Notes under the pieces: model-generated
The model's input: the letters and a program-made list of their open reading frames with translations, nothing else
Told to the model about the DNA's origin: nothing
Databases searched by the model: none
Shown here: positions 43,505 through 49,429 of the stretch, piece by piece
Layout of the letters: every line of letters starts with the position of its first letter
Numbering within the stretch: position 1 is the stretch's first letter
Source: Bacteroides faecichinchillae JCM 17102
GTDB lineage: Bacteria; Bacteroidota; Bacteroidia; Bacteroidales; Bacteroidaceae
Direction: 5' to 3'
Assembly (NCBI RefSeq): GCF_000614145.1
Contig: NZ_BAKK01000008.1
Location: 1-64,000 of the forward strand
Length of the DNA stretch: 64,000 nucleotides
Made by a program: the position numbers and the translations under genes

Positions 43505-43546
43505 TTGAGAACGGGATATGATATATATTTATGGTCTAATTCTTTA

Positions 43547-44497
43547 ATGAGTAGTAAAATAATGAAGTTAGCGACATTTATGAAGCAAGTAGCCGATAGG
43601 CTCCAAATGGGGGGAAACTTTGGAACTGCACACGTATATCGGAGTAGTCTCAATGCCATTATTGCTTTTCATGGGAATGAGGATTTGGCTTTTCGGGAGG
43701 TGACTCCGGAATGGCTGAAAGGTTTTGAAATTCATCTTCGTAGCCGAGGATGCAGTTGGAATACGGTTTCCACTTATTTGCGTACTTTACGAGCGGTTTA
43801 CAATCGAGCAGTGGATAGTCGTAAGGCTCCTTATGTGCCTTATTTGTTCCGCTCGGTCTATACCGGAACAAAAGCGGACCACCGTAGGGCATTGAACGAC
43901 GAAGACATAAAGAAGGTATTTACTAAGTTACCGGGTACTTTTGCCAATATTCCTGTATTACGGCGTACCCAAGATTTATTTGTTTTGATGTTTTTACTTC
44001 GTGGGCTGCCTTTTGTCGATCTAGCCTATCTTCGCAAAAGTGATTTACGTGATAATGTTTTGACTTACCGTAGACGTAAAACGGGGCGTCCTTTGTCGGT
44101 AACATTAACTCCGGAAGCAATGTCGATCTTGAATAGATATGTAAATAGGAACAGCACTTCACCGTATCTATTTCCGCTTTTGACAAGTCGTGAAGGTACT
44201 CGGGAAGCGTATCGTGAATACCAAATGGCTCTTCGCAGTTTCAACCGGCAACTCATGTTATTGGGTGAAATACTGGGATTAGGTGATAGGCTGAGTTCAT
44301 ATAGTGCCCGCCATACTTGGGCCACAACTGCCTATTATTGCGAGATTCATCCGGGAATCATTTCCGAAGCTATGGGACATTCTTCAATCACTGTTACCGA
44401 GACTTACCTAAAACCTTTCAGGAATAAAAAAATAGACGAGGCAAATAAACGTGTAATAGATTATGTAAAACGCTTTGTGTCAGGTCTAATATGTTGA
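43547..44497 (+). CDS. Tyrosine site-specific recombinase (probable invertase of the adjacent promoter)
   Basis: Phage-integrase family: an N-terminal SAM-like DNA-binding part (TAHVYRSSLNAIIAFHG, WLKGFEIHLRSRGCSWNTVS) and a C-terminal catalytic domain with the arginine in FLLRGLPFVDLAYLRK, SARHTWAT (Arg-His), EAMGHSSITVTETYL (His, then the nucleophile Tyr). The first His of the usual HxxR is replaced by Tyr, as in other Bacteroides invertases. Length 316 aa from ATG 43547; ATG 43562 and TTG 43505 are alternatives. The left inverted repeat begins 10 nt after its stop, and tyrosine recombinases next to such repeats in Bacteroides invert promoters of surface genes. No other mobile-element genes are near, which argues against a prophage or conjugative element integrase. 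Confidence 0.88.
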   Translation: MSSKIMKLATFMKQVADRLQMGGNFGTAHVYRSSLNAIIAFHGNEDLAFREVTPEWLKGFEIHLRSRGCSWNTVSTYLRTLRAVYNRAVDSRKAPYVPYLFRSVYTGTKADHRRALNDEDIKKVFTKLPGTFANIPVLRRTQDLFVLMFLLRGLPFVDLAYLRKSDLRDNVLTYRRRKTGRPLSVTLTPEAMSILNRYVNRNSTSPYLFPLLTSREGTREAYREYQMALRSFNRQLMLLGEILGLGDRLSSYSARHTWATTAYYCEIHPGIISEAMGHSSITVTETYLKPFRNKKIDEANKRVIDYVKRFVSGLIC

Positions 44498-44507
44498 ACT
44501 CTAGTCT

Positions 44508-44526
44508 GTTACTTCGTAGGTAACGG
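44508..44526 (+). repeat. Left inverted repeat of the invertible element (recombination site)
   Basis: GTTACTTCGTAGGTAACGG, 19 bp, an exact inverted copy of 44790-44808. It contains GTTAC-N7-GTAAC, i.e. two 5-bp half-sites around a 7-bp TTCGTAG spacer, the design expected for a tyrosine-recombinase crossover site and, as I recall, the motif reported for phase-variable SusC/D loci of B. fragilis. Confidence 0.92.
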
Positions 44527-44789
44527 AGCTTAATAGCGGTGCAAATATGGAGATATTTTGGAAAACAACCAAACAAAAATGATATTTTTTCTGATAAACT
44601 ACTAAAAAAAGAAAATAGCACAATAAAACTGCGGATTTCTTTGTATCAGTACTTTTGTTACCTTCCAATACATAACAAAGATTTTCCTCCCCTCTGCTCT
44701 CTTTCGAAAGCAGGGGTAAATATGTTTCAATGTAGTTTTGCCTGGTTTTTCGTTTAGATGGCTCTCTGAGAGCTGGTACAAAGGTGTTC
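44527..44789. mobile_element. Invertible DNA segment carrying a promoter (263 bp between repeats)
   Basis: The segment is bounded by perfect 19-bp inverted repeats and adjoins a tyrosine recombinase. It holds no convincing gene. Structures inside: a strong minus-strand promoter near the left end; dyad TTTGTTA/TAACAAA (44654-44660, 44673-44679); a hairpin CCCCT..GCT/AGC..AGGGG (44689-44716) with the palindrome CTTTCGAAAG in it; and plus-strand -7-like boxes TACTTTTG (44650-44657) and TAGTTTTG (44733-44740), both without a proper -33. Inversion would swap which flank the strong promoter faces. Confidence 0.88.
44542..44573 (-). promoter_or_regulatory. Phase-variable promoter, currently pointing away from the surface-protein gene
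   Basis: On the minus strand, TTTG (plus CAAA 44570-44573), exactly 20 nt, then CATATTTG (plus 44542-44549), a 7/8 match to TAnnTTTG. Transcription would start near 44535 and run left through the left repeat, antisense into the recombinase 3' end. After inversion the same -7 would lie at about 44767-44774 on the plus strand, starting near 44781 and driving the lipoprotein gene at 44945. Confidence 0.7.
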
Positions 44790-44808
44790 CCGTTACCTAC
44801 GAAGTAAC
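44790..44808 (-). repeat. Right inverted repeat of the invertible element (recombination site)
   Basis: CCGTTACCTACGAAGTAAC, the exact reverse complement of 44508-44526. The match stops at the first base on either side, so the repeat is 19 bp. It lies 136 bp before the surface-lipoprotein ATG; the leader between them contains two direct copies of AGAGACTATAT (44842-44852, 44896-44906). Confidence 0.92.
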
Positions 44809-44944: not shown

Positions 44945-47900
44945 ATGAACAAAAAGTTTTTAAGTGTAGCCCTGTTTGGAGCGCTGTTGGCGGTTTCATC
45001 AGGCACATTTACGTCTTGTAAAGACTATGATGACGACATCGACAGTTTGAGTGAACGTGTGGATGCAAATCAGGCAACATTGGACGCGAAGGTTAAAGAA
45101 CTTCAGAATGCATTGGACGCTACTAAGCAAGAAATTGCTTCAGCTAAAAAAGCCGCAGAGGATGCACAAACAAGTGCAGAGAAAGCTGAGGCTGCCGCAA
45201 AAGAAGCTGCTGCAACTGCTAAAGCTGAAGCTATTGAAGAAGCACAAAAATTAGTTAATGAGCTGAGGGGTTCGATGGATCAGTATGATGAAAAGATAGC
45301 AGTGATTGAAGCTACTCTTAATTCTATCAATGGTCAGTTGGATAAGTTAGCTACCAAAGAACAATTAGCCGCTGCTGAAACTGCTCTTAAAACACAGATC
45401 TCAGCATTGGAAAGTTTCAAAGCTGCCATTGAGAAACTGAATTTAGGAACTGAACTTCCAGAAATGAAGTCACAGTTGAGTACATTACTCGGTGAAATGG
45501 CTGAATTGAAAACAAAAGTAAGTAGTAATGCAGAAAGCATTAGTAATCTGAAATCTGAATTATCAGCTCTTTCTACTGAGGTTAGCAATTTCCAGACAGG
45601 ATTGAACACGTTGAATGATTTACTTTCTCAACGTCTCACTGCCTTGACATTTGCACCATCTCAGTTTATTAATGGTATTGAAGTTGTCAATTTTGCAACT
45701 TTGAGATATACTCCTTGGAACAATCTGCTGACTGACAAGGCTGATGGAAAAAAAGAAACTTCTATCAATGACGGAAAAACTACTGCTTATTATTATGCTA
45801 ACCCGAGTAGTGTTAAAAAGTCAAGTATCAAGGGGCTTACCGTAATTACTAATGATGCTACTAATGAAATCAAGACCAGATCTGGTGAAAAGATTTCTGC
45901 TACTATTGCTGATATTAGTGCTACCGGTAAGGTAACTGTAAACTTGAAGAAATTGAGTGAGGGTTCATTCAATCAGGCTTCTGATAAGGAAAATGTAGAG
46001 AAATTTGCTATGATGCTATTCAGGCCGAAATTGCACTGACTCCTGAAGAAGAACAACAAGGTATTTCACCGGTTGTAACTTCTGACTGGGCACGTTTGGC
46101 CGAAACTTCTGCTATTCCGTTTATCCATAATAAGGAAGCTGCAACAGAGAAAGATGCAGATTTTGCTCATTTCTGGAATTATTCAACTATTCATGATGCT
46201 GCTAACGCAACTGACGTATGTACTACAGAAGGACAGTTTATCCTGAAACATCTGGCATATACTGACAATACTTTGAATCTGAATTCATTGGTTGAAGTTT
46301 GCGATAAAGAAGGAAATAAATACAATGCTGCAGACTACGGATTGGCTTTCGAATTTAACTTAATAGATTATTTGTTGAAAGACAATGCAGAGCAGTCTAC
46401 TAACCAGAAGGAATTTGCTACAATCAGCGAAGAGGGTGTTATCTCTTCTCGTTCTCGTAATGGAGAAGCTCTGAATAGAGATGCTATTGGTCGCGAACCT
46501 CTGGTACAGGTAATTTTGAGAAATACTGCTAATAAGGAAGTGGTAGATGTACGTTACTTCAAGATTGCTTGGACAAGTGAAAGAGTAAATAAGGATTTGG
46601 GAGAATTAATCGCAACATTTACTCCGAATAACAAGTTTGCTTGCAATACTTCTTATGTAGGTATCGTAGGTACAGCTGAAATGAATGATAAGATTTACAC
46701 TGTAGCTAAACAAAACGGTATTAGCAAGGAAGAATTCCACGAATTGTACAAGCTGGATGGTAATGTATATGCAAGTCTGGACGCTGCTAAGGCCGGTACT
46801 CCTGCTGTTACTACACTGGGTACTATTCAGGAAGTTCCTGCAGCTGGATCTGTTACAACATTCAACTTGCAGTGGGATATTGCTAATATTCAATTGACTA
46901 AGGAAGAATATGATGCAGGTAAAGCTGTAAGAACAGTATACGGACGTTATATCAGAAAGAGCGATGACGCTGAAACTTATACATTCAAGATTGTATTGAC
47001 ATTGACTGTTGATAAGATGGCATTTGTTGCCGGTTATATACAGACATACTGGAATACTGCTGATTTGACTACTAGCAACATTAATAAGGCATTCCAGGTT
47101 AATCCAGCTTTGACTGACGATGCTGTTTATGGTATCAGCAAATTCTATGATTGTCAGTTGATTGCTGATATGTTGAAGGGCTACAATAAGAATTCTGGTA
47201 TTACAGAGGTTGTTGATCTGGTTTCTAATGCAGATGACGCAGAATTCCAATTTGATGAAGCACGCGTTAAAGTTCTTCTTGGTAATGAATGGAGCGTACG
47301 TCTCAATGGTACTATCTTGTACAAAAACAACGTAAAAGCTGCTGAAATTAATGGTAGTATCATCCGTTTGTATGAAGAGACTCCTTCTGTTGGCGCTCAC
47401 AGTTTTGCAACTTCAGCTGCTCAGGAATTGTTAGGAAAGAATGTTCCGGTGAAACTTGTTGCTACTAACTGTGCAAATATCACTGTTGAACTTGATCACT
47501 TCTTGGTTAATTTCATTAATCCGTTGGCTATGACATTGGATGAAGTTAAGGAATCATTCAAAGACTTGCTGACTGGTGGTTCTACTATCAGCGTTGAAAA
47601 GATCGCTACTATCACAGAAACCTTCGGTTTGAAACGTACAGTTTGGGCTGACGGTAAAGAATTTGAACCTGCTAATAAGTTAGTTCAGTGGTACAACGTA
47701 GGTGGTGTAACTTGGGATTTGACTAACGCAACTACAAACTTGAAGAAACAAGGAGAAAGCATTGTTATCTCTCCGGATGTTAAAGCAAGCAAATGGAGTG
47801 ACTTTAAAGATAAATATGTATTGGAAGCTACTCCGTCTGAAGCAGGTGCAAAATCTCTGACATTCAAGAATAATAGTGGTGCTCATATCCAACAGGCATT

Positions 47901-48006
47901 CCAGATTGCAGTTCCTGTATATGTAAACACTAAGTGGTCTCCGACATTGGCTGACCCGGAAATGACAATCGTAGTATTGACTGTTAATTCTGGTGAAACT
48001 AAATAA
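44945..48006 (+). CDS. Large coiled-coil surface lipoprotein, S-layer-like, under invertible promoter (one frame disruption)
   Basis: Lipoprotein with signal and lipobox FTSC (Cys27?), then an acidic KDYDDDIDSLSERVD start. A long Ala/Glu/Lys-rich coiled coil covers about residues 30-225 (for example AKKAAEDAQTSAEKAEAAAK), followed by a large beta-rich domain. The frame shifts near 46009 (KFA, then YDAIQAEIALTPEEE once one T is restored: GCTATG for probable GCTTATG); restored length is 1020 aa. The architecture, the invertible promoter with a neighbouring tyrosine recombinase, and an OmpA-type gene downstream resemble the B. thetaiotaomicron BT1927-type S-layer lipoproteins, described as phase variable and protective against complement. 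Assignment to that family is by resemblance, not alignment. Confidence 0.85.
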
Positions 48007-48085: not shown

Positions 48086-48148
48086 TAAAAAATAATATAT
48101 AAGATGGATTGAAGAAATTTGCAGAACTTTATTATTAACTGTAGACTT

Positions 48149-49240
48149 ATGAAGAAAAATATTTTAATCAGCTTAGTAGTATTACTCTGTACTACAATGA
48201 CTTTTGCACAAGAACGGCAGGTAAAAGAACCAGCTAAGGTTATCTTTCATCCTCATTGGTTCATACAGGCACAAGCAGGAGCTGCTCATACCATCGGTGA
48301 AGCAAAATTAGTCGATCTTATCTCTCCGGCTGCGGCTTTCAATGTCGGATATAAATTTGCTCCGGCATTTGGGGCACGTATTGGAGTCAGCGGATGGCAA
48401 GCCAAAGGTGGTTGGGTTAGTCCGAAGCAAGATTATCAATATAAATATTTGCAGGGAAATGTCGATATCATGACAGACCTCAGTTCTTTGTTTTGTGGAT
48501 TCAATCCGAAACGTGTCTTTAATGGTTATTTCTTTGCTGGAGTGGGTTTGAATCATGCATTTGATAATGACGAAGCAAATGCACTGGATACGAAAACCTA
48601 TGAAATGGAATATCTTTGGAAAAATAGTAAAAATTTGGTTGCCGGACGTTTGGGATTAGGTTGTGACCTCCGTTTAAATGATCGTCTGGCTATTAACATT
48701 GAAGCAAATGCAAATTTATTATCAGATAAATTTAATTCGAAGAAAGCTGGAAACTGTGATTGGCAAATCAATGCTTTAGTCGGTTTGAGTATTAAACTTG
48801 GAAAGAGTTATAAAAAGATAGCTCCGGTATATTATGAACCGCAAACTGTGGTAACAGAACAACCGAAACCTACTCCCGTAGTGGAACAACCGAAACCAAA
48901 GGCGGAAGTTGCTACTGTTGAACCTATGAAACAAAGTATCTTCTTTGCTCTGAATTCTGCACGAATTCGAAATGATCAACAAGCTAAGATTGCTTTATTA
49001 GTCGAATATCTGGAAAAATATCCCGCTTCAAGAGTGACTGTAACCGGTTATGCTGATGCGAATACCGGAAATGCAAGAATTAATTCTAAACTTTCGGAAA
49101 TGCGTGCGAAGAATGTGGCAGAAGCATTGAAAGCGAAAGGGATTGCAGCGGGAAGAATTGCGATCGATTTTAAAGGTGATACTGTACAACCTTATGATAC
49201 TCCCGAAGAAAATCGCGTTAGTATTTGTATTGCAAAATAA
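48149..49240 (+). CDS. OmpA-family outer-membrane protein
   Basis: 363 aa from ATG 48149 (upstream TTG 48119 is unlikely), with signal peptide MKKNILISLVVLLCTTMTFAQ. The N-terminal half is a small beta-barrel (FNVGYKFAPAFGARIGVSGW, YFFAGVGLNHAFDN, AGRLGLGCDLRLND). A proline-rich linker (QPKPTPVVEQPKPK) leads to the peptidoglycan-binding OmpA domain: SIFFALNSARIRNDQQ, VTVTGYADANTGNARINSKL and SEMRAKNVAEALKAKG, with NRVSI at the end. It lies 142 nt after the phase-variable lipoprotein, across a terminator, and may anchor or export the surface layer (inference; the B. thetaiotaomicron S-layer locus is arranged alike). Confidence 0.88.
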   Translation: MKKNILISLVVLLCTTMTFAQERQVKEPAKVIFHPHWFIQAQAGAAHTIGEAKLVDLISPAAAFNVGYKFAPAFGARIGVSGWQAKGGWVSPKQDYQYKYLQGNVDIMTDLSSLFCGFNPKRVFNGYFFAGVGLNHAFDNDEANALDTKTYEMEYLWKNSKNLVAGRLGLGCDLRLNDRLAINIEANANLLSDKFNSKKAGNCDWQINALVGLSIKLGKSYKKIAPVYYEPQTVVTEQPKPTPVVEQPKPKAEVATVEPMKQSIFFALNSARIRNDQQAKIALLVEYLEKYPASRVTVTGYADANTGNARINSKLSEMRAKNVAEALKAKGIAAGRIAIDFKGDTVQPYDTPEENRVSICIAK

Positions 49241-49350: not shown

Positions 49351-49429
49351 GAGGATGCCCACTATAATGTTCCCCATTGGCATCCTCTTTTATAACAAAA
49401 GGCGGCTCGGTCTGTTCGAGTCGCCTTTT
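49351..49429. terminator. Two tandem hairpin terminators between convergent genes
   Basis: GAGGATGCC/GGCATCCTC (49351-49359, 49379-49387) followed by TTTTATAA ends the OmpA transcript. AAAAGGCGGCTCG/CGAGTCGCCTTTT (49397-49409, 49417-49429) has A/T runs on both sides and can serve both OmpA and the RNase G gene. Confidence 0.85.

Follow-up and report, generated by a model that had tools for sequence, protein, structure and literature searches.

In the 64,000-nt stretch of the Bacteroides faecichinchillae JCM 17102 genome analysed here (the window), positions 44508-44808 very probably represent an invertible promoter belonging to a Bacteroides S-layer system of the BT1927 type, which is likely flipped by the tyrosine recombinase encoded upstream. 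In the proposed mechanism, recombinase monomers would occupy the half-sites GTTAC/GTAAC, with strand exchange taking place across a 7-bp core. In the ON orientation, the promoter would point to the right and the genes for a lipoprotein and an OmpA-like protein would be transcribed; in the OFF orientation, presumably the one present in this assembly, it would point to the left into the 3' end of the recombinase gene. That the segment switches in living cells is what we infer from the sequence. An earlier note had recognized the layout of a Bacteroides phase-variation switch, and this assignment is supported in that the repeat sequence, the adjoining recombinase, the promoter motif and the S-layer/OmpA-like gene pair fit a BT1927-type switch. 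The note overlooked two points, namely that the promoter is predicted to be OFF in the assembly and that the lipoprotein frame is broken.

Inverted repeats and predicted recombination sites

Inspection of the sequence revealed two arms of 19 nt each (44508-44526 and 44790-44808), which are 100% complementary and enclose 263 nt. The perfect 19-bp inverted repeats described earlier are thus exact reverse complements; the actual repeat unit, however, is a 17-bp site, and the match is lengthened to 19 bp by GG/CC. This site, GTTAC-TTCGTAG-GTAAC, is itself built from a 7-bp core between two 5-bp inverted arms, with GG in addition. The left predicted recombination site (44508-44526, plus strand) contains the 17-bp core site at 44508-44524 with the 7-bp central core TTCGTAG at 44513-44519, and the right one (44790-44808, minus strand) contains the 17-bp core site at 44792-44808 with an identical central core at 44797-44803. 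The right arm, CCGTTACCTACGAAGTAAC, fits the 19-bp repeat consensus CCGTTACCTABVRAGTAAC published for the phase-variable S-layer BT1927 loci of B. thetaiotaomicron (PMC12118408).

The core pattern GTTAC-N7-GTAAC occurs 19 times in the 4.78-Mb genome and a backwards control pattern 14 times, a difference in raw count that is not remarkable. What is remarkable and beyond chance is the inverted pairing of the sites rather than their number: 16 of the 19 form eight inverted pairs 220-284 nt apart, each with a match to the recombinase family PF00589 (Pfam) beside it. A paired-site pattern with a TTNNTAG core had matches in 14 of 60 genomes of the genus, and its backwards control had none.

The invertible segment and its predicted promoter

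The predicted invertible segment between the repeats (44527-44789, 263 bp) had been called gene-free. Although a mechanical frame of 109 aa starting with TTG spans it on the minus strand, only 3 of 59 homologous segments keep a frame of 90 codons or more open on that strand, and the description therefore holds. The inner segment of Bacteroides faecalis (L001) aligns with that of the window in forward direction (257 of 267 aligned bases), whereas that of B. bouchesdurhonensis (L025), which lies between collinear flanks, has to be reverse-complemented to match (254 of 267 aligned bases), its forward alignment reaching only 18 bases. The promoter segment is thus seen in both orientations between species only (L025 inverted with respect to the window and L001); that a related species carries a near-identical segment the other way round speaks for inversion.

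A scan of 350 nt on both strands, based on the Bacteroides promoter consensus with the -7 element TAnnTTTG (PMC7366714), gave a single pair of -33 and -7 elements. It is located on the minus strand (44573-44542) next to the left repeat. The predicted -7 element CATATTTG (44542-44549, minus strand) matches five of the six fixed bases of the consensus and reads away from the lipoprotein gene, and the predicted -33 element TTTG (44570-44573, minus strand), 20 nt from the -7 element, corresponds to a conserved CAAA column in the alignment of 59 segments. Judged by the spacing, transcription would be expected to begin close to 44536 (minus strand). The pair lies by the same arm in all 59 homologous cassettes, where the -7 element was preselected as part of the search pattern and the -33 element was not; of 59 shuffled segments, on average 2.2 have a pair at any position. 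A further promoter-like pair is present elsewhere in 6 of the 59 homologous segments. Since the predicted promoter points to the left, into the 3' end of the recombinase gene, the segment is predicted to be in the OFF orientation with respect to the lipoprotein in this assembly.

In the middle of the segment, a GC-rich hairpin (44691-44716) was computed. It was rejected as a terminator because no T run follows it, and terminator prediction gave no call within the segment; a shuffling control is weak, as -8 kcal/mol is reached by 59 of 59 native and by 43 of 59 shuffled segments. The hairpin is the one feature which would suit a reading of the repeats as attachment sites or as a transcription attenuator instead of an inversion cassette, a reading that is extremely improbable given that the sites are inverted and not direct, that the segment has the opposite orientation in L025, and that it contains no terminator-like site.

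The recombinase gene and the downstream genes

The gene for the tyrosine recombinase, the predicted invertase of the cassette, is an open frame from TTG (43505-44497, plus strand), with ATG 43562 as a possible alternative start. Its product shows domain matches to PF00589 (45.7 bits, cut-off 27.1; at 43982-44416, above the curated cut-off) and PF13102 (71.1 bits) and is 97% identical to a B. faecalis protein. As the frame ends at 44497, the left repeat does begin 10 nt after the recombinase gene, as had been stated.

On the other side of the cassette, the distance of 136 bp between the right repeat and a large surface lipoprotein was reproduced (ATG at 44945), but the lipoprotein frame proved to be broken in the window. 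The N-terminal part of this S-layer-type lipoprotein gene (44945-46039, plus strand; 364 codons) encodes a signal peptide and a TSCKDYDDD lipobox region; the frame is broken near 46 kb, and the remaining part is a 636-codon open frame (46096-48006, plus strand). The window copy may therefore not yield an intact protein. An intact allele of 1020 aa (P0004), which represents a protein-database cluster of 21 sequences, agrees with the first piece at 355 of 363 residues and with the second at 635 of 636, so that the break is to be read as a strain difference or a sequencing error. For the N-terminus of the lipoprotein, no Pfam or NCBIfam match reached its cut-off, and the matches resemble coiled-coil noise; a PDB sequence search with the C-terminal part gave no match at E 0.01. 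The lipoprotein gene is followed by a gene for an OmpA-like outer membrane protein (48119-49240, plus strand; PF00691, 54.7 bits, cut-off 27.2), a predicted anchor or partner as proposed for BT1926, and by a terminator-like hairpin 3' of it (49397-49429, plus strand; consensus match only).

The broken frame could indicate a frozen relic, in which repeats and recombinase persist without inverting while the lipoprotein gene decays. We regard this as quite unlikely, since the recombinase frame is uninterrupted throughout and highly similar to its B. faecalis counterpart, the two arms are identical, the other orientation is found in a related species, and the intact allele speaks for a strain difference or a sequencing error.

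Cassettes in the genus Bacteroides

A strict census pattern, which requires exact half-sites on both arms and leaves cassettes with imperfect half-sites uncounted, identified 59 cassettes in 21 of 158 Bacteroides genomes. Each of the 59 is adjoined by a recombinase match whose 3' end is next to the cassette; in L089, L112 and L133 this match corresponds to just the 3' portion of a cut gene. Downstream of all 59 cassettes lies a frame that has a cysteine in its lipobox region, with a CKDYDDD-like start in 48. Fifty-six cassettes were scored OFF and three ON; 44 of the OFF and the three ON assignments were made by the position of the S-layer start, and 12 OFF assignments by position relative to the recombinase only. 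A second class, recognized by a -7-like motif together with one exact site, comprises 113 fetched cassettes, of which 88 are OFF-like, 8 are ON-like, 11 have the recombinase within the segment, and 6 lack a partner arm. Seven of the eight cassettes in the genome to which the window belongs are OFF-like and one is ON-like (contig C93, L177). Contigs C93 and C138 of this genome both stop 249 bp past the right arm of a cassette, and their predicted orientations are opposite; repeated downstream genes may have halted the assembly at these contig ends. The 59 + 96 cassettes scored for orientation, core and recombinase position provide a sample for questions of OFF bias and partner choice, and the window locus adds one more cassette with a testable OFF prediction.

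Core sequence and choice of the partner site

The 7-bp core is the same in both arms in 57 of the 59 cassettes (mean after shuffled pairing, 14.8). The two exceptions, L089 and L135, each differ by one base; L089 is the same locus as L025 and its recombinase gene is interrupted, while no sign of a recombinase interruption was found at L135. Among the 107 paired cassettes of the second set, 13 have one arm mismatch, in every case within the outer ten bases and never in the core. Strand exchange across the core would be expected to produce this combination of identical cores and mismatches restricted to the outer bases.

The core might in addition function as an address: the arms must share a core, inversion keeps the copies identical, and neighbouring S-layer cassettes differ. 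If so, each cassette would flip alone without deletion or fusion of the surface genes in between. We put this idea forward tentatively and consider it rather doubtful. A shared core was found in 0 of 9 tandem pairs versus 21 of 79 distant pairs of the same genome (Fisher P 0.11; permutation P 0.07 overall and 0.21 within genomes), which is only suggestive of neighbouring cassettes carrying different cores, and the core TTCTTAG is common to 64 of the 107 paired cassettes of the second class, which argues against a generally private address.

Origin of the OFF bias

As the OFF orientation places the promoter convergent with the recombinase gene, we considered an antisense-RNA trap, in which the OFF promoter transcribes antisense into its own recombinase gene, silences it and thereby holds the cassette OFF; this would explain the OFF bias. 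The geometry agrees with such self-trapping, since the 3' end of the recombinase gene faces the cassette in all 155 paired cassettes with an adjoining match (59 + 96) and the predicted promoter points into the recombinase gene in 144 of them. Data on BF2766 of B. fragilis fit as well: the promoter located just downstream of BF2766 is reported to be biased OFF and a distant one is not, and the OFF bias was lost when the recombinase was provided on a plasmid (PMC4747536). Against self-trapping stand 11 loci with the recombinase gene inside the segment, where neither orientation gives such an antisense arrangement; 9 of the 9 scorable loci are nevertheless OFF, five of which look orthologous, so that these are not nine independent cases. 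The two unscored loci are one between two S-layer genes and one lacking a downstream S-layer frame in the stretch examined. Because the recombinase-inside loci are OFF in all scorable cases, an antisense trap is not needed as the cause of the OFF bias, and we consider it improbable; selection against ON in culture or low switching rates would be a simpler reading.

Variant and interrupted loci

The recombinase-inside architecture was found at L160, L168, L197, L203, L213, L232, L234, L236, L237, L248 and L249. The inverted sites are separated by 1.2-1.4 kb, and the recombinase gene would flip together with the promoter. Two more loci, L199 and L225, may belong here as well; no partner arm was found for them within the span searched. 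At L203 (G084:C5, about 274.6-281.0 kb), the recombinase-bearing segment is located between two divergent, near-identical S-layer genes, which are 99.94% identical over 3199 bp with no match in the 796 bp beyond (blastn). Either orientation would aim the promoter at one of the two S-layer genes; the arrangement may reflect a duplication or an assembly effect.

At four loci, namely L002 8810 / L025 8001 (the L089 locus), L027 8001, L028 8001 (the L133 locus) and L112 4290, a cassette-type recombinase gene is interrupted at one common codon (about 265, within a conserved ARHTW stretch); the hosts are B. bouchesdurhonensis (twice), B. xylanisolvens and G075. The interrupting DNA carries two tandem tyrosine-recombinase matches, and its last 140 nt are identical at 138-140 positions in the pairs compared. 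L002/L025 is the only locus at which both halves of the recombinase gene were seen; they lie on the same contig, separated by about 25 kb, and fimbrillin-like genes follow there. At the remaining loci only the 3' part was seen. The L089 switch beside the cut gene, with cores differing by one base, is predicted to be ON. An element homing into switch recombinases, if it exists, would freeze the switches.

Comparison with known systems

BT1927 is an S-layer lipoprotein of 100 kDa, for which BT1926 is the putative anchor or secretion partner (PMC12578637); about 1 in 1,000 cells is ON for BT1927, as cited in PMC12548429. The window contains the repeat consensus, an adjoining integrase gene and a lipoprotein gene (with a lipobox-like start and an intact allele, P0004) followed by an OmpA-like gene. 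It shares with the BT1927-BT1926 locus, as described in PMC12548429, PMC12118408 and PMC12578637, the 19-bp repeat consensus, a nearby site-specific integrase, a large surface lipoprotein with an OmpA-like/barrel partner, and a promoter that is inactive in most cells of the described system and predicted OFF here. The two loci differ in species and in the broken lipoprotein frame of the window, and they are likened by description rather than by direct sequence comparison. Since the right arm fits the consensus and an S-layer-type lipoprotein is accompanied by a partner as in BT1927/BT1926, we place the locus in the BT1927-type kind. A protective role of such S-layer switches in Bacteroides, against phages as well as complement-mediated killing, has been reported (PMC12548429).

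In the B. fragilis BF2766 system (PMC4747536), a tyrosine recombinase likewise flips a promoter immediately downstream of its own gene and this local promoter is biased OFF, but the system controls exopolysaccharide genes and a lipoprotein-bearing cluster, with one recombinase acting at two places; the word GTTAC is absent from the main text of the report on it. The recombinase-inside S-layer loci L160, L168, L197, L213, L232, L236, L237, L248 and L249 share the GTTAC/GTAAC half-sites and the lipoprotein start MNKK...SCKDYDDD with the window but differ in that their 1.2-1.4-kb segment would carry the recombinase gene along on inversion. Compared with these systems, the cassette described here is a sound but ordinary addition to a known family of switches.
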